Shown here: positions 1,913 through 24,195 of the stretch, in pieces | How positions within the stretch are numbered: position 1 is the first letter of the stretch | Layout: every line of letters starts with the position of its first letter | Virus record (IMG/VR): IMGVR_UViG_3300030102_001182 | Span: 1 to 24,195 of that record | Direction: 5' to 3' (one strand) | DNA length: 24,195 nucleotides | Source of the DNA: a virus | Notes under the pieces: model-generated | Seen by the model: the letters and a program-made list of their open reading frames with translations, nothing else | The model's database searches: none | What the model was told of the DNA's origin: nothing | Made by a program: the position numbers and the translations under genes

Positions 1913-4900
1913 TTACCTTCCAAAATTTCTAGTGTCTAGCTGACCATAAACAGGCAAGTAATCTGCTACACGCCAGTCCCAAGTTATGCCATCATACACC
2001 CTTTCTGCAGCTGGCCCCAAGGGCGGTACCCAGAATGGTTTGCCGTACCTATGACTCTCTAAGAATATAGGCAGGGCTAAACTCACTGGGCCTAGCATAC
2101 CACTTCGGTCTATGATCTCAGTTATATACTGTCCTGTACTCATGCTGTTGCTCTTAAAGTAGTTTACTCCTGGATCGTCGCCATCAATACCTGGCAACAA
2201 CTCTGCTAGTAAATACTTAGTCAACTCTCTTATTTCTAAACCTAACATAGTTATAGGCAGTAAGATCCCAGCCATAAGCAACAATGGCATCACACCAGCG
2301 CCTACGCCTTGGTTTACAAACCCTCTATGTGACTCTTTTAAGGTTGGGAACACGATTGTTTTACCGTAAGCATAGAAGAATGATTTTAACTGCCATATAA
2401 GAGCATACCTAGGATCATTAGCATAAGTAGGTCTTTGTGCTGGATTAGGTCTTACGATAGATTCATCTACAAACTGGGCCAACGCTTCATTGACCTTTGT
2501 ACGTGTAGCATCATCTGCCTTACCGCCTTCCCAAGCCAACACTTCATCTGCGGTGATATTTAGTTCATCTAAGTAAAGTTGAGATGTAGCGTCCCCTTCC
2601 TGAGCTTTTCGTGCGTGATTCTGCAGGAATCTTGTGCCCATGCCCGTAGCAAACACTCTAGTAAACTTAGTGTATGCCTCTAGCAATGTGACCCTAAACC
2701 AAACATCTGATACATTTTTCGAAGTTTGATTCATAAAGTTCTGTTCTCCAGCAAAGATAAAGAAGCTGGACATAGCATCTACACCGATAACACCAACCTC
2801 TCGTGCTAACTCAGCAGCCTCTTGCGGGCTTTTTATCATAGTTTTGATAACGCTAGCCACGTCACTTATCTTAGCTGTACCCCTAGACCTCAATACTGGC
2901 CCTGCTGTATCTTGTAAAGAAGCTAGCACAGTAAAAGCTAGCAGAGTAATAATGTTCACGGGAAGTAGTACATTATTCGCTACTTTTAGCCAACCTTTAT
3001 CTATAGGTGGGGTTTTACCAAACATAGAATCAATGATTCTTTTAGAATCTTCTTGTTGTTCTGGGGTAAGTTGTTCTCTTAATCTGTTTAGCTCTTTTAC
3101 ACCGCCCGACTGTTCAAACTCGTACTTAAGGGCTACTTTATCTAAATATTGTTTTAGAGCTACTTCTGCTGGTAATGCTAAGCCAGAATCTATAAGTTCT
3201 TTGTTTGTTACGTTAGACCAAAGTTTTTTCCTTTCTTTCATCATGCCAAGATCTATCTCATCTTGAGCAGTAAACTCTATTTCTCCGCTACCTGTCTTGA
3301 CAATGTAATTAACTGCTTCTGCAATCTCAGCGTCTTTTGCGGTTGGGTTAGCTTTTTTAAGAATGTTTCTAGCGGTTATTTGTAGGCTCTCGTTCCCTGC
3401 TATTTCTGCAACCGCAACTACACGAGGGAAGAAGTTACTTCTAAACTCTACCCCATACCTAGATAAGCCTAGATCTTTATATACGTTGTTCTCTAGATAT
3501 TCTCTTATCGCCTTAGCTTGTGGTGGTAGATTAGCTGTGTCTACAGTATCATCAGCAGCTAAATCTATTTGCTGTTTTTGTTCTGTACTTAAGGTAGAGT
3601 AAATCCAACCATCTTCTACCCCTAATATCTTTGCTACCTCATTAAACATAGCATTTGATCTTCTAGTTTTTAGCGTAAAGATACCCGCTCTGCCTGATTG
3701 AGAAACAGATCTAGGGTCTTGATTAAAGAAGTCAGCTATCTGTTCACCAACTGGGCCGTAGTTCCTAAGCCTGGTATCAGCAGTTAGTAATATTTTCTGC
3801 AGCCATTTAGGCAAGTTCTTAGTCTTAAATAGTTTACTTGTCTGCTCCATAGCTTTTCGCAACTGCTTATCAGTAAACGTTTCTGGCCCAAGAACCCCTT
3901 CAATCATAGTCTCTATGCTTGCTTTTGTTTTATAAGAAACATGCTGGTTTTCTGGGTTTATAAGAGTTTTTTGTAATTCAGCCGCATACTCTTGGAAGGT
4001 TTCGTCCATTGCTGTACGCTTTCTAAAGATCTTAGACTGGTCATACATTTTCTTTTGTGATTTAGCTAGGCGCTTGAACCAAGCCTGAGCAGGTTTGTTC
4101 ATGTTGTCGTAGACTTCAGAATCCGCTTCTATACCCAATTCTTTTCTAATAGCTACACCGAACTGATCAGCCATAAAGTTCTCTATGCCCGTGTCATCGT
4201 TTGTGTAGGTAGGAGGCACGTTGTCACCTTTTAGTATTTCTTCGTACGCTTGTAGTATTTTTTTCCTAGTAGCGGGCACTTTTAAACTCTTTTCTAGCTC
4301 TTGGAAAGTCAAAGAGTTACCTAATTCTTTTAAAAATGCAGAGTAGTATTGTCCTTCAGAGATGTCTGGATTTGTTTTCATTAAGATAATATCAAAATCT
4401 CTGTACTGCAGAGTCATAGCTACTTTATCTGATCGGTCTAAAAGATCTTGTCTTTTATCGTCAAAGTTTTTTTGGTCGATTACGTTTTTAATTCTTGTAG
4501 GTAACTGTGAATCGCTGTACCCTTCTTCCGCCGCTACAATGTGTAAGTTTGTTGTGAGCCCTAAGTTTCTAGCCGCTCCAATCATATTAGTAATTATTTG
4601 TTTTCTAAAAGGTAGGTTTGCTCTTGCCCTTGTCGTAGGTGCTGGGGTATCTATACCTTTTAACTTATTAATCTTTTCTTCTATCACTTTACCTAAGTAC
4701 ACTGCTGTAACTTTTTGGTATTTTGTGTTGTCCTTAAATTTTGGTTTTGTATTACTTGTTCTTGCTAGATCTGCGTACCTATCTCTGCCCCTGAACTCTT
4801 TGCCTTGTTGTTCTTGATAAGTCTCGAACAAATTTCGATCTCGAATGTCCATTTTTACAGCGGAAGTATCTGTAATCTTAGTATCAGTAGGAGCGTCTAG

Positions 4901-7900
4901 GTTGTACATGCCAGTCTCATCTATAGAAGGTGTAGCTCTTTCTATAGCAATTGTTTGAAGGTCATCTAAGTAAGTTTCTATTGGCACATTTCTATTGATT
5001 GCACCGCCCACTCCTTGAAATTGCGGATCGAGAATATCAACGTCTTGTCTATAAGTTATCTGTTCGTTCGTGTCTCTATCTACACCGACCACGTCACGAG
5101 TTACTTGTGTAGTTGCTTGCGGGTTATAGGTGCCGGGTTCATTCCTTACATCCGCACTGTTTATAGCAGCTATGACCTTACCTATTTCACTTAGGAACTG
5201 CATTATAGTCCTATCTTGAGCTTTGACTATTCCATACAATTCCTTAACTTCGCCTGGTGTCTTTTTAGAATCTTTATCTACTGCAGCATACCTGACACTC
5301 AAAGCGTCTTCGGCCCTAGCCGCAAGATCTTCTAGTTCTTGTAAAGTCATCTCCTGCATAGTATTAGCTTCAACATTTTGTATCAAAGGTAAAATATGTG
5401 CAGGGCTCATACCAGCGACTAAAGATGTACCCTTTGTTTCATACACTAAATCTTTTAAGGGCACGTTTACTTTTGCAAATCTATCATTTGTAAAAAAACC
5501 GCTAGCTAATTTTGGAAGCCCAAATTGTTTTCTTAAGTATCGAACCGCTTTTGAAAAATCCTTAATGTCCTCTGGTATTTTTATTCTAAGAATACTTGCT
5601 CCAGGCCCATCCGGTTGAGAGATTATGTCATCAAGAGCTGCTCCTAGTTGTATGTCACTTTTCTTTTTGGGCCCAGACATAACGAACACTGCCTCTTCTT
5701 TTACGCCTTGTGGGTAATACTCAAGTTGGAAATTATTTTCTTGTAATATATCTATTGCATCTAACAGAGCTGCGAGTCTTTGCCCAGCTTGGTTTGTGTA
5801 CTCTTCGGGCTGTCTACGTTGTTTTATCTTAGATAGAGTAGAGATACCCTCTAGTAAAACCGCCATGTCTACGTTTATTGGTTTTTTACTTTTGGCTTCG
5901 GGGTTTAGATTCTGTAATTTAAAGTGGATTGGTGTGTCATAACTACTAGACTTAGTTCTTGCGTTCGCTTGGTCTAATCGTATCTGGAGATCCGCACGTA
6001 TGTTTCTGGTAGTTTCAACATTTTCTCTAGTAAGTTCTCTAAACTGTTCTGGCTCAGGTTTCATCCTTACTATTACATATCTTCTTTCAGTATCCGGTTG
6101 TTGAGGGCCCAAAGAAGCATCTGGTCTTTCAGGTGCTACGAAAGTCTCGTCATTAGCAGTTGCTGTTCTAAGCCCACGCAAATCTCTTACATCTACAAAT
6201 CTTAAAAACCCAATACCGCCTGTTTCTTCTCTTTCTATCTTGGCTTTGTCTCTAAAAGTTTGTACTGCCCTTTTAGATAAAAAAGGTTTCTGACTTTCAA
6301 ACTCTGCTTTCAAAGTCGGGTGTATGTACGTATTCAACCCAGCAATAGAACGCCCGTCTGCTTTAGGATCACTTTTATCTACCTTAAACCCTACACTTAG
6401 TCTGTGCTCTTTTAAGTCTTCCTCGTATTTTTTTACTTTCTTTTTGTTGTTCTTTTCTTTTTCTGTTAGGGGTTTTGGTTTTTGTTTATATCTTTTAGGG
6501 TCTACAAACGGGTTTTGTACAGTACCAGAACCAAATTTAGACATAACAACTGGATCTGCTTCTTTTATTGGGGCTTTAGCTTCTCTTTGTGCGGCTCTAA
6601 AATCAGCAAGTTGTTTTATATAGGCTTTATCTTTTCTACCCTTTTTAAAGTCTTTTGGGTTTGGTCTTTGTAAATCTAAAACTACATTAGTTCTACTTAA
6701 AACCTCACTAACTCCTACTAAAGGTACATTAGTCGCTTCTCTACTACCAAACTCATCCCTAGCTATGCTACTTTCAATAGAGTCTGGTTGTTGCAACAAA
6801 GCCCCTTGTTCAGCTATTTCTTGTAATATCCCGTCTAGTTCCAGGGCTATAGTTTGAAAACCCCCTGAAGTCATTCTTTGTAAAAAAGCTCTATCTTCTT
6901 TTCTTAGAGGCCCAGCATTTTTTTCTGCATTTATAAGTTGGCCATAGATTCGTGAGTACCTGCGTCTTGCGTTTGAGTCGGGTGTGCCTATTGGGTCTAA
7001 TAAGTTCTTTGAAGATTGTTTTGGGCCTGAAGGCTGAGGGCTTTTTTTACTTAAGTTTATTGCATTTAAATCTTGTTGAGATTGCTGTTTAGCCGCCTCT
7101 CCAGGAGCGGCTGTATCAGCAGTATTTTTAGCTACACGCTCAACTTCAGCTAACTGTTCTGGTGTTAACTCTTGTAGAGTTTTACCTTGTTGTCCATGCC
7201 CTGCTGATTGTAATTTGTAACCTGAACTTTTTATATTCGTAGTTACTGCAGAAGGGCTAGAATTAAGAATAACCTCGTTTCCTTGTTGATCAATAACTTT
7301 TATTGATCCTGCTTCTGATACAGCTGTTACTCTTGCTTTGTATCTGTTACCAGCAATATCAAATACATCTATCTCATCCCCTACTTTTACATCTGAAGGC
7401 GGAGAAATTTCAGCGGGTTCTGTGGTATTTTGTGAATCTTGACCTGTAGTTTGTTGCCTGCCTAATAAAAGCTTACGTGTTTGTTGCAAAAAGAAGACAA
7501 GCTCACCGAAGTCAATAGGTAATTTGTATTCGTTTTTAAGGTAACTATCAAACTGTTCTCTTTGAGCAGGGGTTACTCTACCTTTTCTTATATCAATGTT
7601 TGCTCCAGTTACGTCTATGTTTATTTGACCTCTGTCCCCTTCTACGCCAGTATCATCATCACTAGTCCCCATCTCAGACATGTCGCTGGTTTCAAAAGCC
7701 TCTTTAGTAGCTTTTAGTACATCAGCATCTTTAGGTAATCCTTCTTGTCTAAAACGTCTATGCTGTGCCAAACTTTGTATTTCTATACTGTACCTCTTCG
7801 GGTCCATAGCCGCTCTTATTTTATTCATCGCAGCTTCTGCAGCTTCTGCATCACCTTTGACATCTTCCCTAGCAGATTGATACTTAACAAACTCACCTTT

Positions 7901-9547
7901 TTCGTTATCAAAAAGACCAACTACAATGTCATCTTTAGGGTCTCTAGACCTGCTAAACCCTAAGTTCTCTGCTAAAAAGTCTTCTAGTACTCCAGTGTTA
8001 TATTTATATCCACTGTCCATAATGTTTGCTAGCCTGCTAGCGGAGCGCTCATTTGTAGTAAAGAAAACGCCTGTAGGCGTAGAAACACTAAACAATTCAT
8101 TGTCACCGAACATCGCTTCTACTTTCTCTTGTATCTTTGCAAACTCTGCTTTTGACTCTATAGGAACAAACACACTATCGGCCCCTGAGTTTTCATTGCT
8201 CATAAAGTCGAATTGTGCTTCTAAAGCTACCGCGCGTTCACCCATAACTGCGCCTAACTTCGCTGCGTTCTCTCGTTCAGTAAAGATACGCATCATCTCG
8301 CGTTCTGCGACGCCTCTTTGTGAAAGGTTTCTAGCTTTGTTTATAACTGCAGTACCTGCGCCTAAACCACCACCAACACCAAGCCCACCCATAAGACCAG
8401 CAAATAAAGCATTTACTCTATCTATTTTTGCTTGCGCTTTCGTGTAAGTGTCGTCTATTCTGAACTTTTGTTGTACGGATAGCTCTTCTTGTAAAAGTTC
8501 GGCAAGGCCCTCGGAAGCAGCAGTAACCGCACTGATAGAAGCAAAATCCTTAAATAAACTTCCTGGAGGGATAGGGTCAAACTTGAATGGGTCTGCGGCT
8601 GCGCCCCTTTTTACCCGCCCCGGTCTCTTTAACCTGCCTATGGTAGCTGCAACAGTTAAACCTTCAGCACCAACTCCAGCAATACCAAAAGCGGTACCTT
8701 GCAACAAAGAATTAATTGCGTCTTTTTTGCTGTCCATGCCCTGATCGACGTAATCACTAAAAGCTATACCAGTACCCATACGTTGTTCTTGGGTAAATGC
8801 ACCTAAAACTGCGCCTTGGGTAAATCTTTTGCCACGTAGGTTAGAACGCATGACACCGTAGATGGTGTCTAAATCTTGAAGTTCTCCTTTTGAAAATTTA
8901 TGTAGCGGCTTTTTATTAGCGTTGACCCTAAGTTGATTTTTGTATGCTCTACTTAAAAGGTCTTCTACTTCGCCTTTGTCGATCCCAGCTCGAGTTGTTT
9001 GTAACGCCTTTACGCTACCAGTTACGGCTTTTCTTCTAGCAGCCGTCCCAGCAGCTGCAGCCCCTAGTAATGCAGGTGTTGCTGTACCACCAGATAGTAT
9101 TGTACCACCAGCCACAACGCCCCCCACAACAACAGCTTCAGCTAAACTTGCAGCCAGTGAAGGTATAAATTGTCCCGTGGCAGACGCAAAGTTCAGCATA
9201 AAATCATGCACGTCGCGTTCTTCCAATGCGCTAGCAAAGTCTGACTCAAGTCCTCGTAAAGGTATGCCAGCTTGATCTTCTAAAAAATCTGCTTCACGTA
9301 CTCGGTTGCGGGCAGATACATCATCCCCACGAAGTGTGTCTATAGCAGCTAAAAAGTTTTGATTTTGTGCGGCTATGTTTGCAGCACCAGACTCAATACC
9401 GGCACCGAACGCTTCTCCCAACGTATCTATTTTTTCTACATAAGTTGCATCAGGAGTTGCACGTCTGCCGGCAGTTTGTACGAAAGTAGTTTTGGTAGCG
9501 TCAGGAGTCTGTTTAAGCTTGGCAATTGTATTACTGTCAACTGCCAC
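1913..9547 (-). CDS. Giant virion protein (2544 aa), T7 gp16-like position, DNA-ejection/polyvalent protein
   Basis: The GTG start at 9547 follows a GGAG site. The N-terminal 410 residues hold three Ala/Gly/Val-rich, membrane-seeking stretches (about 126-170, 279-302, 382-402). Around 721-761 is a small SH3/KOW-like beta segment (VGDEIDVFDIAGNRYKARV). Around 1690-1800 is a zincin-like peptidase layout: an extended beta region, then FLKELGNSL where an active enzyme would show HExxH, then ENFMADQFG about 45 residues on. Both metal-binding His are replaced (Lys, Asn), so it is probably inactive. The C-terminal third resembles the large polyvalent proteins of phages: an RSNFFPRV motif, hydrophobic stretches near 2190-2215 and 2416-2440, and an RPNPAQRP-x-YANDPRYALIWQLKSFFYAYGKT segment. 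As the last and largest gene before the fibre genes it sits where T7 gene 16 sits, so a periplasm-spanning ejection role is inferred. I saw no convincing N4-type virion RNA polymerase motifs. Confidence 0.75.
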   Translation of the reverse strand: MAVDSNTIAKLKQTPDATKTTFVQTAGRRATPDATYVEKIDTLGEAFGAGIESGAANIAAQNQNFLAAIDTLRGDDVSARNRVREADFLEDQAGIPLRGLESDFASALEERDVHDFMLNFASATGQFIPSLAASLAEAVVVGGVVAGGTILSGGTATPALLGAAAAGTAARRKAVTGSVKALQTTRAGIDKGEVEDLLSRAYKNQLRVNANKKPLHKFSKGELQDLDTIYGVMRSNLRGKRFTQGAVLGAFTQEQRMGTGIAFSDYVDQGMDSKKDAINSLLQGTAFGIAGVGAEGLTVAATIGRLKRPGRVKRGAAADPFKFDPIPPGSLFKDFASISAVTAASEGLAELLQEELSVQQKFRIDDTYTKAQAKIDRVNALFAGLMGGLGVGGGLGAGTAVINKARNLSQRGVAEREMMRIFTERENAAKLGAVMGERAVALEAQFDFMSNENSGADSVFVPIESKAEFAKIQEKVEAMFGDNELFSVSTPTGVFFTTNERSASRLANIMDSGYKYNTGVLEDFLAENLGFSRSRDPKDDIVVGLFDNEKGEFVKYQSAREDVKGDAEAAEAAMNKIRAAMDPKRYSIEIQSLAQHRRFRQEGLPKDADVLKATKEAFETSDMSEMGTSDDDTGVEGDRGQINIDVTGANIDIRKGRVTPAQREQFDSYLKNEYKLPIDFGELVFFLQQTRKLLLGRQQTTGQDSQNTTEPAEISPPSDVKVGDEIDVFDIAGNRYKARVTAVSEAGSIKVIDQQGNEVILNSSPSAVTTNIKSSGYKLQSAGHGQQGKTLQELTPEQLAEVERVAKNTADTAAPGEAAKQQSQQDLNAINLSKKSPQPSGPKQSSKNLLDPIGTPDSNARRRYSRIYGQLINAEKNAGPLRKEDRAFLQRMTSGGFQTIALELDGILQEIAEQGALLQQPDSIESSIARDEFGSREATNVPLVGVSEVLSRTNVVLDLQRPNPKDFKKGRKDKAYIKQLADFRAAQREAKAPIKEADPVVMSKFGSGTVQNPFVDPKRYKQKPKPLTEKEKNNKKKVKKYEEDLKEHRLSVGFKVDKSDPKADGRSIAGLNTYIHPTLKAEFESQKPFLSKRAVQTFRDKAKIEREETGGIGFLRFVDVRDLRGLRTATANDETFVAPERPDASLGPQQPDTERRYVIVRMKPEPEQFRELTRENVETTRNIRADLQIRLDQANARTKSSSYDTPIHFKLQNLNPEAKSKKPINVDMAVLLEGISTLSKIKQRRQPEEYTNQAGQRLAALLDAIDILQENNFQLEYYPQGVKEEAVFVMSGPKKKSDIQLGAALDDIISQPDGPGASILRIKIPEDIKDFSKAVRYLRKQFGLPKLASGFFTNDRFAKVNVPLKDLVYETKGTSLVAGMSPAHILPLIQNVEANTMQEMTLQELEDLAARAEDALSVRYAAVDKDSKKTPGEVKELYGIVKAQDRTIMQFLSEIGKVIAAINSADVRNEPGTYNPQATTQVTRDVVGVDRDTNEQITYRQDVDILDPQFQGVGGAINRNVPIETYLDDLQTIAIERATPSIDETGMYNLDAPTDTKITDTSAVKMDIRDRNLFETYQEQQGKEFRGRDRYADLARTSNTKPKFKDNTKYQKVTAVYLGKVIEEKINKLKGIDTPAPTTRARANLPFRKQIITNMIGAARNLGLTTNLHIVAAEEGYSDSQLPTRIKNVIDQKNFDDKRQDLLDRSDKVAMTLQYRDFDIILMKTNPDISEGQYYSAFLKELGNSLTFQELEKSLKVPATRKKILQAYEEILKGDNVPPTYTNDDTGIENFMADQFGVAIRKELGIEADSEVYDNMNKPAQAWFKRLAKSQKKMYDQSKIFRKRTAMDETFQEYAAELQKTLINPENQHVSYKTKASIETMIEGVLGPETFTDKQLRKAMEQTSKLFKTKNLPKWLQKILLTADTRLRNYGPVGEQIADFFNQDPRSVSQSGRAGIFTLKTRRSNAMFNEVAKILGVEDGWIYSTLSTEQKQQIDLAADDTVDTANLPPQAKAIREYLENNVYKDLGLSRYGVEFRSNFFPRVVAVAEIAGNESLQITARNILKKANPTAKDAEIAEAVNYIVKTGSGEIEFTAQDEIDLGMMKERKKLWSNVTNKELIDSGLALPAEVALKQYLDKVALKYEFEQSGGVKELNRLREQLTPEQQEDSKRIIDSMFGKTPPIDKGWLKVANNVLLPVNIITLLAFTVLASLQDTAGPVLRSRGTAKISDVASVIKTMIKSPQEAAELAREVGVIGVDAMSSFFIFAGEQNFMNQTSKNVSDVWFRVTLLEAYTKFTRVFATGMGTRFLQNHARKAQEGDATSQLYLDELNITADEVLAWEGGKADDATRTKVNEALAQFVDESIVRPNPAQRPTYANDPRYALIWQLKSFFYAYGKTIVFPTLKESHRGFVNQGVGAGVMPLLLMAGILLPITMLGLEIRELTKYLLAELLPGIDGDDPGVNYFKSNSMSTGQYITEIIDRSGMLGPVSLALPIFLESHRYGKPFWVPPLGPAAERVYDGITWDWRVADYLPVYGQLDTRNFGR

Positions 9548-9550
9548 GTT

Positions 9551-11368
9551 TTAATCTCCGCGATATGGTTTTATAAATTGACTTACTTCTATGTTGGTTG
9601 CTAAATCATTAAATGTATCAGTAAACTCTTTGCCTTCTATAGCGTTGCCGACTTGCCTGCCAGAAGAATCCACAAACACTATCTTCTTAAGTTGTAACCC
9701 GCCGCCTGTTTTTTCTTCGTATATACCACGCGCAGTGTTAACGATGTCTCCAAGTGTTTGGTCTTGGTTTGCCCTATCGGTGAATAACTTGATAAAGAAG
9801 TTCCTGTCGTCTGCTCCTCTATTCATCATCACACTATACATAGCTTGTCCGATAACAGTTCTCATACCATCAACCATCTGTGTAGATAACAACCCATTTC
9901 TCTGTGCGTTACTAAACTTATCTATCATTCGCTTGAAGTGAATGTTTCCTTCATTAGCAGTTATATCGGTAATCTTGCCATCATCATAAAGAGCCTCTGT
10001 AAAGTTAACAAAGTCTTTGTCAAATGCCTCATAGGCATCTTTGACAGCGTCATTAGTTAATTTAGCACTTTCTATTCTATTGTTTTGGAGTTTTAGTTTT
10101 AGCTCCTCGTTAAACTTCCTACTTGTTATATTGAAGGATTGTTCTTGTAACCTGTTTACACTAACGTTCCCAGTTTCTAGTAGATTTAAACTTTCCTGGA
10201 ACTCTTTCTGGAAGTCGCCGCCTGCAGCTACTGCTAAGGCTGCAGCTATTTCTGCCCTATTTATATCAATCTCATCATCATATTCTGGCAATGTTCTCAA
10301 GTCTTCTGGGTCTTTAACATTATATTTACGGAAAATCGCTCTGGTTTTATCTACAGTAGATTGTTCTATACCCACCTCTTTTAAAAGACTTTGATTTTGT
10401 TCTATAAAAGCAAACAATTGTTCTGGGGTAGCTTGATAAGGCATTGCAACATTTGATTCTCCTATACGTGTTAGAAGGTCTTGTCGTTTGTCTTGCGCTA
10501 TTTTTAAATCGCCTGCAGCCTTAATGTTTTCTTCGGTAGGTTCAGCACGAGTTCTAATGGGAACTTTGCTATCCATTCCTTCTCCGGACATACGCGAAGA
10601 AATTGAGTCGGGCGTTGACGCTTTTCTTAGGGTTTCTATTTCAGAGTCTACTTCTGTTAAATCTTGTCCTAGTTTTGCCCTGTAAGCATCTAACCCTTGG
10701 TTAAATTGGGTTCCTAAATCAACAATCATTTGAAAAGCAGAAGCTGGGTCTAGGTCCCCTGTCTCTACCAGTCCTTCTATAACACCCACTGCTTGCGGAA
10801 CACTACCCGCTTGTTCTATTTTTTCGGAATTCGAAAGTTTTTTATTTGCCTCAAGACCAGCTAAAGTTAGTATCCCCTGCGCTCTGCCACCAAAAGCTTC
10901 TCCGCCTGCAGTAATTCTATCTGCTTTGCTTTGTAAAATAGTATTAACCATAGTACGAAGACCCTCTCTATTAGTTGTCATAACAATATCTTGTGGGTCA
11001 TTACTAAACCCAAGGGTCTTTGGCACAATGCCCTGTTTGCCTTGTATCTCAAAAGTTATACCAGCGGGTCCTTCTCTTAAGCCTACTATTTTCCCTTTTT
11101 CTTTTTGTCCACTATTTATATCAGTGTATGTAGTTGCAGTGGGGCTAGCATTTAAGATATTAACTATCTTCTGTATCCCATTCTCTTCCTCAAACAATTG
11201 ATCAAACTTAACATCATCTATCTGTGCGTACTCATCATTATCTTTGATATTTAAAAGGTCTATATAAGGTGACACGCTTTCTAAAAGTACTTTAGCCTCG
11301 CGATCATTTCGCTCTGATATGCTACTGCCTATAGAGTAGGCTCTTTGTATGTCTGATAAAGTTGCCAT
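9551..11368 (-). CDS. Internal virion protein, T7 gp15-like by position (605 aa)
   Basis: A 605-residue soluble-looking protein with no signal peptide and no clear membrane segment. The N-terminal 60 residues are helical and charged. A beta-rich segment follows around residues 95-135 (GLREGPAGITFEIQGKQGIVP), and the rest is mainly helical and rich in Glu, Asp, Asn and Gln. I do not recognise a named domain. The case for a role is context: it lies between two small Ala/Gln-rich proteins and a giant protein, exactly where T7 gene 15 (747 residues) lies between genes 14 and 16, and it shares the helical, soluble character of core proteins. The gap to the preceding stop is one base and no strong ribosome-binding site is visible, so translation is probably coupled. 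Function as a core/ejection component is inferred. Confidence 0.6.
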   Translation of the reverse strand: MATLSDIQRAYSIGSSISERNDREAKVLLESVSPYIDLLNIKDNDEYAQIDDVKFDQLFEEENGIQKIVNILNASPTATTYTDINSGQKEKGKIVGLREGPAGITFEIQGKQGIVPKTLGFSNDPQDIVMTTNREGLRTMVNTILQSKADRITAGGEAFGGRAQGILTLAGLEANKKLSNSEKIEQAGSVPQAVGVIEGLVETGDLDPASAFQMIVDLGTQFNQGLDAYRAKLGQDLTEVDSEIETLRKASTPDSISSRMSGEGMDSKVPIRTRAEPTEENIKAAGDLKIAQDKRQDLLTRIGESNVAMPYQATPEQLFAFIEQNQSLLKEVGIEQSTVDKTRAIFRKYNVKDPEDLRTLPEYDDEIDINRAEIAAALAVAAGGDFQKEFQESLNLLETGNVSVNRLQEQSFNITSRKFNEELKLKLQNNRIESAKLTNDAVKDAYEAFDKDFVNFTEALYDDGKITDITANEGNIHFKRMIDKFSNAQRNGLLSTQMVDGMRTVIGQAMYSVMMNRGADDRNFFIKLFTDRANQDQTLGDIVNTARGIYEEKTGGGLQLKKIVFVDSSGRQVGNAIEGKEFTDTFNDLATNIEVSQFIKPYRGD

Positions 11369-11369
11369 A

Positions 11370-11939
11370 TTAAATCTGGAACGCAGCTAATATACTAGCT
11401 GCCATATTACCCATTTGAGAAGCATAATTAGCTTTCGCTTGTTTGTATGCTCCTCTCCTTTGCACTTCGCCTTGGGCCGCAGTGCCTAGCCCTTGTAAAG
11501 CCCTGGCGTTAACGCCTTGACCTATGCCGATCATTTCTTGCAACAGCGCTTGGTTCATGGCTCTTTGCCTAACTCTAGCATTATTTACCGTGTTAGCTAA
11601 AGATAGAGCTCCGCCTCTTTGTGCGGTCCGTTGCTGTTGTTGAAGTTGTGCTTGAGATAAACCCGCGCCGCCGTAACGTTCTAGATTACGTTTTTGTATG
11701 GCCGCAGCTATTCTTCTTTGCTTCGCTGCATTCACTCTAGATCTATCTATGAGAGTAGTATCGTCGGTCTTACCTAACAAACGTTTTTCAAACTCTCTAA
11801 AATTTTCTACGTAGTCGTTATAATCTTCCCTAAGAATATCAGCAAAAACTTTATCGGGGTTATCTACAGGCGCTAATCCCCCCGCATAATCTTGCTGAGC
11901 GGGCTTGATAATACCTTCTATTTGACTCATTATCGCCAT
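11370..11939 (-). CDS. Small internal virion protein, T7 gp14-like (189 aa)
   Basis: A 189-residue protein rich in Ala, Gln and Arg. The N-terminal part is charged (EDYNDYVENFREFEKRLL). The middle holds a Gln run (LSQAQLQQQQRTAQRGG). The C-terminal half is Ala/Gly/Met-rich and ends MGNMAASILAAFQI, which could insert in or lie on a membrane. Size, composition and position just before the 605- and 2544-residue proteins resemble T7 gp14, the core protein that forms the outer-membrane pore on ejection. Family membership is inferred from context. The start at 11939 follows a weak GGAA; an in-frame ATG three codons later is an alternative. Confidence 0.5.
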   Translation of the reverse strand: MAIMSQIEGIIKPAQQDYAGGLAPVDNPDKVFADILREDYNDYVENFREFEKRLLGKTDDTTLIDRSRVNAAKQRRIAAAIQKRNLERYGGAGLSQAQLQQQQRTAQRGGALSLANTVNNARVRQRAMNQALLQEMIGIGQGVNARALQGLGTAAQGEVQRRGAYKQAKANYASQMGNMAASILAAFQI

Positions 11940-11950
11940 ATTTTATTCCG

Positions 11951-12571
11951 CTATGTTGGTGTCCCTTTCCCTATACTTCGTCCAAATATTATATCGAAAG
12001 GATTGTCACTCACGTTGATTCTATCTTCTTGCTCCGCCATTTCATTGTAAATGTTTGCAGCTCTATACTGCCCGACGTTCTGACCTGCTTGCTTACCTAA
12101 AGTAGTAAACATCCCTATACTACCGGCATCACGGATTCGTCTAGCTTTAGCCCTATTTAAAGTGTCAGTAGTAGCTATCTTAGAAGCTAAAGATAAACCA
12201 GCCTGGGTATCAGAAGCCATTTTGTTAGTAAACTTCATGCCCGTAATTTGATCACTTAGCCCAGCCTGAACCCCTTGCGTTGTACCCTGCAGTAGTTGGT
12301 CGGTGCCAGCTGAAGCCATGTCAGCTTGTGCATCTACCGATTCGACCGCACGTCTATTTGGGTTTGTAGTTAGAGCTTGCATGGTATCAGCCACAGCTAC
12401 ACCTTCTGCCCTGTCAACAAGACTGTCTGCCTCTATTTCAACCCTTTCTACAAATTCTTTTTGTTTGGGTAAAAATTCTTTCTTGAAATAATCTTTCTCA
12501 GCTAACGCTATGGAAGCATTTATTTTTTCTACTTCACTTGGCTTATACTCTGACTTCTTAGGTTTTCCCAC
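11951..12571 (-). CDS. Small internal virion protein, second gp14-like candidate (206 aa)
   Basis: The GTG start at 12571 overlaps the end of the GNAT-like gene by 14 bases, with AGGAG 11 bases upstream. Residues 1-60 are a highly charged, helical, Lys/Glu-rich region. Residues 60-165 are Ala/Gly/Thr/Gln-rich, low in charge and predicted helical (QADMASAGTDQLLQGTTQGVQAGLSDQ). The tail is mixed and ends GKGTPT. I do not recognise a named family. Composition and position between the GNAT-like protein and the other small Ala/Gln-rich protein suggest an internal core or ejection component. Two such proteins in a row, where T7 has one, could be a split or duplicated gp14 role. No evident membrane helix. 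Confidence 0.5.
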   Translation of the reverse strand: MGKPKKSEYKPSEVEKINASIALAEKDYFKKEFLPKQKEFVERVEIEADSLVDRAEGVAVADTMQALTTNPNRRAVESVDAQADMASAGTDQLLQGTTQGVQAGLSDQITGMKFTNKMASDTQAGLSLASKIATTDTLNRAKARRIRDAGSIGMFTTLGKQAGQNVGQYRAANIYNEMAEQEDRINVSDNPFDIIFGRSIGKGTPT

Positions 12572-13013
12572 TTTTAACCGTTCTCCTATATATCCTTGTA
12601 TCAGTATGCCAGCCTTTTGCTATTGCATACGGTTCCAATTCAGGTACATGAGATTGCGCTTCTATGTACTTACAGTCGGATTTCCTAGCTAACTCTTCAA
12701 TCCAATCTTGATGAGACAGCCACTGATGTCCGCCCTTATCATAAGTATACGCTAACCACATATACAATGTCTTGTCTTTTGTGTACCTATCTACGTCTAT
12801 AGTAAGTACTAAAAACCCGACTGGTGAGGTAAATAAAAACGCTCTTTCATTTACACAATCACTATAAACATCTTCGGGAATAAAAGTTAGACTTGGATTG
12901 TCTGCTAATATACTTTCTATGCCAGGCTTAATAATGTTCCACGTGGAACGTATATCAGTAAGCACTGGTTCGACAAAGTCATTAGTAGTCGATCTCCTTT
13001 CCGTATCTTCCAT
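12558..13013 (-). CDS. GNAT-like protein, T7 gp13-like position (151 aa)
   Basis: A 151-residue protein with an acetyltransferase-like alternation of strands and helices: a central strand pair (AFLFTSPVGFLVLTIDV), a helix (HQDWIEELARKSDCKYIEAQ), then a final strand region (YAIAKGWHTDTRIYRRTV). The LARKSDCKYIE...YAIAKGW pattern is typical of the C-terminal half of GNAT folds. The acetyl-CoA pyrophosphate loop (Q/R-x-x-G-x-G/A) is not apparent, so catalysis is doubtful. Known context: T7 gp13, encoded just before core genes 14-15-16, also has a GNAT-like fold. The ATG at 13013 lies 4 bases after a strong AGGAGG inside the preceding gene, with which it overlaps by 32 bases. A 16-base parS-like palindrome lies within this gene. 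Confidence 0.55.
   Translation of the reverse strand: MEDTERRSTTNDFVEPVLTDIRSTWNIIKPGIESILADNPSLTFIPEDVYSDCVNERAFLFTSPVGFLVLTIDVDRYTKDKTLYMWLAYTYDKGGHQWLSHQDWIEELARKSDCKYIEAQSHVPELEPYAIAKGWHTDTRIYRRTVKSGKT
12935..12950. promoter_or_regulatory. parS-like ParB-binding palindrome
   Basis: The sequence is TGTTCCACGTGGAACG. Positions 12936-12949 are a perfect 14-base palindrome (GTTCCACGTGGAAC) and match the bacterial parS consensus TGTTNCACGTGNAACA at every position except the last flanking base. It is embedded in the GNAT-like gene, where it encodes Arg-Ser-Thr-Trp-Asn. No ParA or ParB gene is visible in the window, so if it is bound, host ParB or a phage ParB encoded elsewhere would be the partner. 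Binding is inferred from the match alone. Confidence 0.55.
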
Positions 13014-13656
13014 AGCGCCTCCTTGGCCTACCTATTCCTTTGTATTTTACTGTTCGTTTTACACCCAGGTCCCCGCCTCTTGCACGAAGTTCTGCTTGTA
13101 CTATTTCACTATTAAACTGTGCTAGGTATTCCCTAGCTGCGCCAATGTCTGTCCACTCTCTGTTAGGCATGCGAAGTAATCTATACAAAGAACCATAAAC
13201 AATCGCATCTCTATACTGGTTCGAGATTGTGCTGTCAATATTATTGCTGGTCCTAGTTGGTTTTAAAGCAACACTAGCAATAACTTCTTTTGTTCCGCTT
13301 GGAACAGGAACAATCCAGAATAAACTAGAAGATTTTTGTAGGTAAACGTGCGGACTGCCTGTTCTATTTCTCCAGTCTGGGTAATTTAACTCTAAGCTAC
13401 GTGGACTTATGGGGTCCATGTCGTTCCCATCGTGCGTCATATATAAAACTTGATGCACTTCTGTAGCTACTGGGATATCAAAATCATACTCATACACCCC
13501 CGCAGTTGTATTAAAAGGGTCCATGTCTAGTATGTAAGCCTTTGACCTTTCGCAAAATTCTATAGTTGCAGATCGAATGTGCTGTTCAACTAAAGCATCT
13601 GGGCACAGTGGCACGTAAGGTAAGATGTCTTTTACTAAAGAAGTATAAGTTGCCAT
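12982..13656 (-). CDS. Connector/neck-type structural protein (224 aa)
   Basis: A 224-residue protein. It opens with a helical MATYTSLVKDILPYVPLCPDALVEQHIRSATIEFCERSKAY region, the arrangement seen in podovirus head-tail connector and tail-tube proteins. The beta-rich middle has a PVPSGTKEVIASVALKPTR strand. A helical region carries YRDAIVYGSLYRLLRMPNREW and then EYLAQFNSEIVQAELRARGG. The C-terminus is strongly basic (GRPRRRYGRYGK). The overall plan parallels the preceding connector gene, so the two may be paired neck or tail-tubular components (the T7 gp11 position). The start at 13656 lies one base after the stop of that gene, with no clear ribosome-binding site of its own. The exact role is inferred. 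Confidence 0.6.
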   Translation of the reverse strand: MATYTSLVKDILPYVPLCPDALVEQHIRSATIEFCERSKAYILDMDPFNTTAGVYEYDFDIPVATEVHQVLYMTHDGNDMDPISPRSLELNYPDWRNRTGSPHVYLQKSSSLFWIVPVPSGTKEVIASVALKPTRTSNNIDSTISNQYRDAIVYGSLYRLLRMPNREWTDIGAAREYLAQFNSEIVQAELRARGGDLGVKRTVKYKGIGRPRRRYGRYGKEIDY

Positions 13657-22165: not shown

Positions 22166-22320
22166 TACTTTTTGCCTCCTTTTTTCTTTTTCTTCTTTTT
22201 AATAATACCTCTGCCCATAAGAATATCGGCTTTGGTTATTTTTCCGTCTTTATTAAGATCGGGGAAACTTTTCTTGCGTTTCTTTTTAGTAGCTTTTGCT
22301 TGTTGGTGATATTTAGTCAT
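22165..22320 (-). CDS. Small basic protein with EF-hand-like loop (51 aa)
   Basis: Read directly: ATG at 22320, TAA ending at 22165. Basic head (MTKYHQQAKATKKKRKKS), then FPDLNKDGKITKADILMGRG, then an all-Lys tail. DLNKDGKITKAD is a 12-residue EF-hand/dockerin-type calcium loop (Asp1, Asn3, Asp5, Gly6, Ile8, Asp12), with a non-standard Asp rather than Glu at position 12. The start overlaps the small terminase stop (ATGACTAA). I recall similar FPDL-x-x-DGKVT proteins in marine phages. Calcium binding is inferred from the motif. Confidence 0.7.
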   Translation of the reverse strand: MTKYHQQAKATKKKRKKSFPDLNKDGKITKADILMGRGIIKKKKKKKGGKK

Positions 22321-22831
22321 TATTATTTCCTTGGGGTTCTAAATATGATTTATCTACGCCAGCTAGTTTTAGAAGCTCGGCGTCCGGCAACCGTTCTAGT
22401 TGCTGGATCTTGTCTACATTAATATTGACCTGGGTCGCTTGTTCAGGAGCGAATAACCCATGCAGTTTACATAGAGAGTCGACAACGTTCTTTTCTTCTG
22501 TGGCGGTGGCCGATTTTCGGTGGGCCTCAAGATACATGGTGGTGGCCGTGTTTCGATCGAACTTAACCTCTTCACGCATCTCTTCTCTAAGATACTCAAC
22601 TGCTTGTTGGATTTTTGGTTTCTTAAAAACCTCGTACACATGATCCATGTTACGGTAGCCTGCCGCACGTCCAGCGGCGGCTTTACTTAGTCCTCTTAAA
22701 TGGAACAAAATCAACCTTTCTTCTTGGACAGAAAGCTCGGACAGTTTTACCCCAGCGTATGGGTAATGAGACTGAAGTTCAATTCTATCTTCTTCGGTGA
22801 CTTGCATTTCTTGATCTGCTACAAGGCTCAT
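22313..22831 (-). CDS. terS: Terminase small subunit
   Basis: A 172-residue protein, first gene of the minus-strand operon. Residues about 30-70 hold a helix-turn-helix (LSVQEERLILFHLRGLSKAAAGRAAGYRNMDHVYEVFKKP), typical for DNA recognition by small terminases. Then come a central helical oligomerisation region (IQQAVEYLREEMREEVKFDRNTATTMYLEAHRKS) and a Glu/Gln-rich end likely to meet the large subunit. It should recognise the packaging site and load DNA onto the motor. There is no visible ribosome-binding site before the ATG; a promoter just upstream would give an almost leaderless message. It is separated from the large subunit by seven small genes, whereas the pair is usually adjacent. Confidence 0.85.
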   Translation of the reverse strand: MSLVADQEMQVTEEDRIELQSHYPYAGVKLSELSVQEERLILFHLRGLSKAAAGRAAGYRNMDHVYEVFKKPKIQQAVEYLREEMREEVKFDRNTATTMYLEAHRKSATATEEKNVVDSLCKLHGLFAPEQATQVNINVDKIQQLERLPDAELLKLAGVDKSYLEPQGNNND

Positions 22832-24075: not shown

Positions 24076-24195
24076 ATGCCTGCCTATTACTACTATCATC
24101 ACGAGCGTATGCGAGTGTGCCCGCATGCATATGCCAATCTTGAATCTGGTTCCACGTGTTCCACGGACCTTTGCCGATGTGGAACCGTTTCATGG
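24076..24195 (+). CDS. Partial His/Cys-rich ORF at right edge
   Basis: Read directly from the ATG at 24076, with GGAGA 8 bases upstream; open for 40 codons to the window end. It starts MPAYYYYHHERMRVCPHAYA and continues with SGSTCSTDLCRCGTVSW. Four Cys and three His in 40 residues could form a metal site. The length is too short to be certain it is coding. Confidence 0.4.
   Translation, partial: MPAYYYYHHERMRVCPHAYANLESGSTCSTDLCRCGTVSW
24148..24186. repeat. ParB-like half-sites and inverted repeat
   Basis: GGTTCCAC (24148-24155) and GTGGAACC (24179-24186) are a perfect 8-bp inverted repeat. TTCCACG occurs twice (24150-24156, 24159-24165). GTTCCACGTG (24149-24158) is ten bases of the parS consensus, and GTGGAAC is the opposite arm. 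The same arms make up the full palindrome at 12936-12949. Confidence 0.45.

Follow-up and report, generated by a model that had tools for sequence, protein, structure and literature searches.

The window, meaning the whole stretch of DNA analysed (a virus record of 24,195 bases), carries one copy of the parS-type palindrome GTTCCACGTGGAAC inside a gene of a phage structural module. This palindrome is best explained, at a probability of roughly 0.7, as an orphan parS that recruits the chromosomal ParB of the host and so holds and positions the DNA of a non-integrating phage. Host ParB is favoured because the site is single copy, takes a second location in relatives and is identical to real chromosomal parS sites.

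Sequence and setting of the palindrome

Pattern search of the record returned the palindrome once (Table 1). Its core agrees with the chromosomal-type parS consensus TGTTNCACGTGNAACA at 14 of 14 positions and the enclosing 16-mer TGTTCCACGTGGAACG (12935-12950) at 15 of 16, the single mismatch being the last base, so that the near-perfect parS with its last flanking base off, claimed in an earlier note on this DNA, was recovered. The same 16-mer is the M. xanthus parS consensus as quoted in the available text of PMC7022226. The rarity by chance claimed for the site also held, since the 14-base pattern was present in none of 100 shuffled window sequences. Two further near-palindromes, at 13292 and 24149, have two mismatches each; the former may be a chance match and the latter belongs to a half-site array described below.

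Table 1. Features of the window, with position, strand and basis of assignment.
Feature	Position	Strand	Basis
parS-type palindrome GTTCCACGTGGAAC / 16-mer TGTTCCACGTGGAACG	12936..12949	.	sequence match, shuffles, homologue conservation
phrog_610-family gene holding the palindrome, 151 aa, predicted GNAT fold	12558..13013	-	PHROG match, structure prediction
second block without synonymous change, GNAT-fold gene	12744..12782	-	codon comparison; promoter-like AAGACA-18-TATACT
terminase small subunit gene, beside the noncoding array	22313..22831	-	phrog_51, 5e-7
start of noncoding half-site array, terS side	24077..24195	.	GTTCCAC at 24149 and 24158, GTGGAAC at 24179

Within the carrier gene the palindrome is read as CGT TCC ACG TGG AAC, encoding Arg-Ser-Thr-Trp-Asn (RSTWN). 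The gene lies in a head/tail structural module with a P22-type portal, flanked by an SU10-type adaptor gene on one side and by smaller genes of unknown function on the other. Its product matched only phrog_610 (function unknown) and no Pfam family, and a search for the protein among named phages gave no match. A GNAT fold is predicted from structure models (best pLDDT 80.8, four others 58-77): 48 of the 50 PDB rows listed bore the names of acetyltransferases, or of complexes involving acetyltransferase-type enzymes or toxins, with TM by query of 0.41-0.65, and the other two (3i9s) were an integron cassette protein.

Downstream of this gene (1913-12571) the encoded proteins diverge abruptly from those of relatives with capsid proteins sharing 94-97% identity with those of the window; the product of 9551-11368, for instance, is 23% identical in locus L006 versus 81% in L009. 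The pattern is a sign of modular exchange.

Conservation of the palindrome

Homologous loci were taken as the best 80 of 126 stretches, giving 81 rows with the window. Of the 40 nearest loci (protein identity 71-99%), 38 had the exact palindrome; none of the next-nearest 40 had it at the GNAT-fold gene. The two exceptions among the nearest were L012, in which one changed base turns Thr into Met, and L033. Following dereplication at 95% nucleotide identity, it was kept in 16 of 17 representatives.

All 39 sequences among the 81 rows that encode RSTWN use the same five codons and thus have the palindrome, even though these codons include 6-, 6-, 4- and 2-fold degenerate ones. Codons for other unchanged residues were counted in 13 loci (codons 1-11, 21-26 and 78-90 excluded), and differed in 36-50% of cases in L036-L041 and in 12-39% in the seven closer loci. 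Homologues without the palindrome do not retain the full RSTWN, and the outcome that the earlier note had named as fatal to its reading, residues kept with the palindrome lost, does not occur. Codons 78-90 of this gene (39 bases) form a second block, which showed no synonymous change in the 17 representatives, was nearly fixed in the 80 loci and is more strongly conserved than the palindrome codons. It contains the promoter-like AAGACA-18-TATACT, although a promoter scan found 2 candidates, with 1.8 expected.

Copy number and second location

The 14-base pattern GTTNCACGTGNAAC was exact in 20 of 32 relatives' records, and none of the 32 held two copies. The remaining records had only a one-mismatch match (5) or none (7), and the reversed-pattern control gave 0 matches in the 32. 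By place, 17 of the exact sites fall in the GNAT-fold gene and 3 in a noncoding gap. The latter three records (G026, G030 and G032) have no gene site and carry the exact palindrome in the interval that separates terS from the early genes; the corresponding gap position holds TGTTCCACGTAGAACA in G025 and G029, and GGTTCCGCGTGAAACA in G031. Thus six of the seven relatives compared that have no gene site carry an exact or 1-2-mismatch gap palindrome amid GTGGAAC half-site repeats, the seventh, the 58-kb related phage G027, having neither gene nor gap site. Six shorter records with no gene site (G014, G021-G024 and G028) gave no match at up to one mismatch.

Sixteen gap loci were inspected, and two of them (L096 and L097), which have no TGGAACC, were left out of the alignment. 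In all 14 aligned phages the gap holds an array of TGGAACC/GGTTCC half-sites at fixed spacing. Of the seven phages with a gene site, six have a disrupted version of the unit equivalent to the palindrome; in the seventh, G008, this unit reads TGTTCCACGTAAAACA, with two mismatches. The 14 phages were tallied as exact gene site (7), exact gap site only (3), 1-2-mismatch gap site only (3) and neither (1), with both sites exact in none. Gene and gap places are not strictly exclusive, because G008 combines an exact gene site with its two-mismatch gap unit. Since the compared phages are related, the site probably relocated once or a few times, rather than 14 times independently.

Exact gap copies match TGTTCCACGTGGAACA over its whole length, the half-site being followed by A, the base found in parS, and the surrounding repeats are mostly GTGGAACC; the gap copies of L082-L084 match parS at 16 of 16 positions. 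In the window the array is cut by the contig end at 24,195, within its first units, the palindrome lying further inside the array in other lineages. From its sequence, this terS-side array of GTGGAACC/GGTTCC half-sites looks like an origin, a pac or a half-parS region.

Search for partition and integration genes

Partition and integration proteins were searched in the 32 relatives' records, many of which are fragments, as ParB_N and tyrosine integrase (PF00589) only; both gave 0 of 32. ParB_N was likewise absent from the window record, and no ParA/ParB Pfam match was obtained among its 18 ORF products. The earlier note had stated that no ParA/ParB is present in the window, which agrees with these results. 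Of its two proposals for a parS, recruitment of host ParB is the one now favoured; the other, a phage-encoded ParB elsewhere in the genome, found no support in the relatives' records.

Two candidate identities were rejected on the same searches. An integration site (attP core) calls for an integrase, of which the tyrosine type was found in 0 of 32 records, and a phage-encoded ParABS calls for a ParB gene, found in 0 of 32 relatives and not in the window. The combination seen here, a parS on phage DNA with no ParB_N or tyrosine integrase match in these often fragmentary records, is the one expected of a virulent phage making phi29-type use of host ParB.

In the 62.9-kb relative G015, a primase-helicase-like protein, an exonuclease, a helicase and CsrA were found, and no ParA/ParB among 20 early-side and accessory proteins compared with Pfam (10 of these also with PHROGs). 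The first 20,000 bases of this record (L099) encode CsgG and CsgF (curli export), a FecR-domain protein, a CHASE2-adenylate cyclase, a cytidylyltransferase-like protein and CsrA.

Cultured relatives and candidate host

The nearest cultured relatives of the window phage are P. aeruginosa phages (MCP 54%). KPP25 carries TGTTCCACGTGGAACA as the sole exact site in its whole record, in a gap beside the MCP gene; the 40 kb of it that were inspected, which cover the terS side, showed no half-site array. Phages R18 and CRPAP1904 have one 16/16 host parS each, and R4900a also carries a 16/16 parS; KPP25 and R18 represent one genus. The P. aeruginosa parS determined by ChIP-seq is given as TGTTCCACGTGGAACM in the available text of PMC5098823, and the KPP25 16-mer equals it at 16 of 16 positions. 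According to the same text, P. aeruginosa sites with two mismatches showed no significant in vivo binding, a point relevant to the two-mismatch gap units described above as well. Perfect parS palindromes are described as the best ParB-binding ones in the part of PMC4368675 available.

No site at up to one mismatch was found in Acidovorax phage AP1, Aeromonas phage phiA008 or MW202615. Among 16 other Pseudomonas phages (14 with records naming P. aeruginosa as host) none had the exact site, 3 had a one-mismatch site and 2 the reversed control pattern. Since all these phages are without an exact site, parS is not a general phage need.

Searching species genomes with MCP gave 9 loci, including contigs assigned by binning to Gammaproteobacteria TMED226 (77%) and WB9_1A_092 (77%) and to a Neomarinimicrobiota MAG (90%). 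From the names of these MAGs, the window phage lineage is probably marine. The TMED226 MAG (G034), a 0.8-Mb draft, contains one match to GTTNCACGTGNAAC at up to one mismatch, and this is an exact GTTCCACGTGGAAC. It lies where the recF frame ends, adjoining gyrB and followed by dnaN and dnaA (genes named by eye); the same contig carries parA (also named by eye) and then parB, roughly 10 kb from the site, and the parB product matches solved Spo0J/ParB structures. A bacterial ParB together with the same parS was seen for KPP25/P. aeruginosa and for this MAG. TMED226-type Gammaproteobacteria are a plausible host group with the phage's exact 14-mer as centromere, on a MAG link that rests on binning, which can be wrong. 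The phage contig binned in TMED226, a 19.4-kb fragment, had no site at up to three mismatches, and the exact site was absent from the WB9_1A_092 draft.

A capsid gene of this phage family (MCP 52%) also occurs in an isolate of Pasteurella testudinis, on the 72.6-kb contig NZ_FWWV01000006 (L229); the exact parS was absent from that genome.

Occurrence in virus databases

Among IMG/VR stretches, TGTTCCACGTGGAACA and TGTTTCACGTGAAACA were each found in at least 120, versus 2, 17 (9 clusters), 12 and 2 for four control palindromes, an enrichment of at least 7-fold. The 80 TGTTCCACGTGGAACA matches examined, of at least 120, fell into 60 nucleotide-similarity clusters, 33 mostly intragenic (within a mechanically called ORF of 90 aa or more) and 27 intergenic; for TGTTTCACGTGAAACA, 51 clusters were obtained among the matches listed. 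Forty TGTTCCACGTGGAACA records, mostly the longer ones of the 80 with no strict length cut, were tested further, and ParB_N and tyrosine integrase were found in 0 of 40 each. Terminase_6N was present in 11 of the 40, as in KPP25, so that the phage identity of the other 29 rests on IMG/VR; some of these could be bacterial contigs.

In INPHARED, a 34-base doubled-parS query returned 123 records at E <=10 (73 at >=99% identity, GenBank/RefSeq duplicates included) versus 0 for the control, phi29-group phages being matched at 20 of 22 bases. Three Microviridae (KT264816, KT264817 and MG945337) match a doubled parS-like motif over 32-33 bases (E ~1e-6 to 5e-6). Klebsiella jumbo phages RaK2, K64-1, Muenster and others show a 17-base parS match, in some inside a gene annotated as baseplate wedge; their hosts are not known to have a chromosomal ParABS.

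Discussion

ParB loads at parS and slides in a CTP-dependent manner, and positioning is driven by ParA. In the KPP25-related phage lineage the palindrome, usually single copy, would serve as a nucleation point for host chromosomal ParB, which would load there and slide along the adjacent phage DNA as a CTP clamp. Host ParA could then hold the phage genome near the nucleoid origin region, and, from known ParB biology, the genome would be carried along with the host origin. A non-integrating genome would in this way be positioned and, should infection stall in a slow-growing, dividing cell, might be inherited, as with phi29 and Spo0J. That the palindrome is a ParB-binding site is considered likely; that retention or positioning is its main use is proposed more tentatively, at somewhat less than even odds. 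Weighing against a parS read by host ParB, as far as the sequences tell, would be the outer-base mismatch of the window 16-mer, the Klebsiella phage matches, and G027 and the six shorter records with no site.

The palindrome is almost certainly a selected DNA element, as is also expected of a chromosomal-type parS, which is selected as DNA and not as protein. Coincidence, or protein-level constraint on RSTWN, is scarcely credible: it could draw on the sliding-window score, in which RSTWN comes only 6th when 744 windows of five codons are ranked by synonymous conservation, and on the stronger conservation of codons 78-90, but it is opposed by the fixed degenerate codons in 39 of 39 sets, the loss of full RSTWN in homologues without the site, the empty shuffles, the lack of any second exact copy and the reappearance of the palindrome elsewhere in relatives. 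The ranking alone is not decisive, and the argument for selection is based on codon identity across all RSTWN rows together with the second location. The main rival to an orphan parS is a phage-encoded protein (a replication initiator, the small terminase or another repeat binder) that reads GTGGAAC half-sites, the palindrome being its strongest target with two half-sites and the likeness to parS being convergent. Such a reader would account for the fixed-spacing array in 14 of 14 aligned phages, in 7 of which (L093 included) the palindrome or a 1-2-mismatch version is an array unit, and would suit the origin-like DnaA-box-like TTATCCACA and AT-rich stretch noted by eye near the start of terS in L082, L083 and L085. 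It does not account for KPP25, which has the palindrome without an array, for the outer A of the exact gap copies, where most repeats have C, or for the wide enrichment of the same 16-mer, found in 60 virus-contig clusters. Moreover, P. aeruginosa ParB is reported in the available text of PMC7022226 to bind the half-parS GTTCCAC as well, and the array itself may be ParB-bound. A phage-encoded half-site reader was considered quite unlikely.

Host ParB might also be bound to another end, as a decoy, a brake on late-gene transcription or an aid to packaging or condensation. The late structural module is where the window clade has its site; ParB enrichment extends over more than 20 kb around P. 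aeruginosa parS (PMC5098823, available text), and an excess of ParB in E. coli prevents a parS plasmid from replicating, with about 10^4-fold fewer transformants (PMC4368675, available text), all of which would fit these uses. A lone site, however, is a poor titrator, and a brake on one promoter is at odds with a position that varies by lineage (within a structural gene, in the terS gap or, in KPP25, in the gap on the MCP side). These uses in place of retention or positioning were judged somewhat unlikely.

If host ParB does load on these phages, chromosome segregation would join the host systems exploited by phages, and a centromere would be a conserved single-copy phage element, one that could account for the persistence of non-integrating phages in slow-growing bacteria. 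Variants of parS in phage genomes could aid host prediction, and the cultured phages KPP25 and R18 make recruitment of host ParB testable at once. There is perhaps an even chance that the principle is general, with many phages that have no ParB themselves, infecting Gram-negative and other hosts, docking their genomes on the host segregation machinery via a host-matched orphan parS, and the usually single centromere of the window clade having changed place, sitting either in a noncoding half-parS array or at a late-gene position fixed at synonymous sites.

Comparison with known systems

With the chromosomal parS TGTTCCACGTGGAACM and ParB of P. aeruginosa the window site shares the 14-base core, and the full 16-mer is identical in the three gap copies and KPP25. 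The window site differs in lying on a phage in which no ParB was detected, inside a coding gene, as a single copy and not at oriC. The plasmid-prophages P1, N15 and some mycobacteriophages encode their own ParB; their ParABS systems likewise place a partition site on a phage genome, unlike the window clade in that ParB_N and tyrosine integrase were found in 0 of 32 records.

For orphan parS sites in virulent phages of Gram-negative hosts, no report was found among the titles and abstract openings listed from the open-licence literature. The closest precedent is the virulent Bacillus phage phi29: host Spo0J reportedly entraps its genome in the spore (Meijer 2005, cited in the available text of PMC9437464), and its virion gene 10 ends with TGTTTCACGTGGAACA. 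Both cases present a parS-type site on phage DNA, use of host ParB being reported for phi29 in that text. The phi29 system differs in its Gram-positive host, its sporulation setting, an unrelated phage and a different parS variant; in the window clade no sporulation is in view, and the site is conserved at the level of codons and occupies a second place in relatives.
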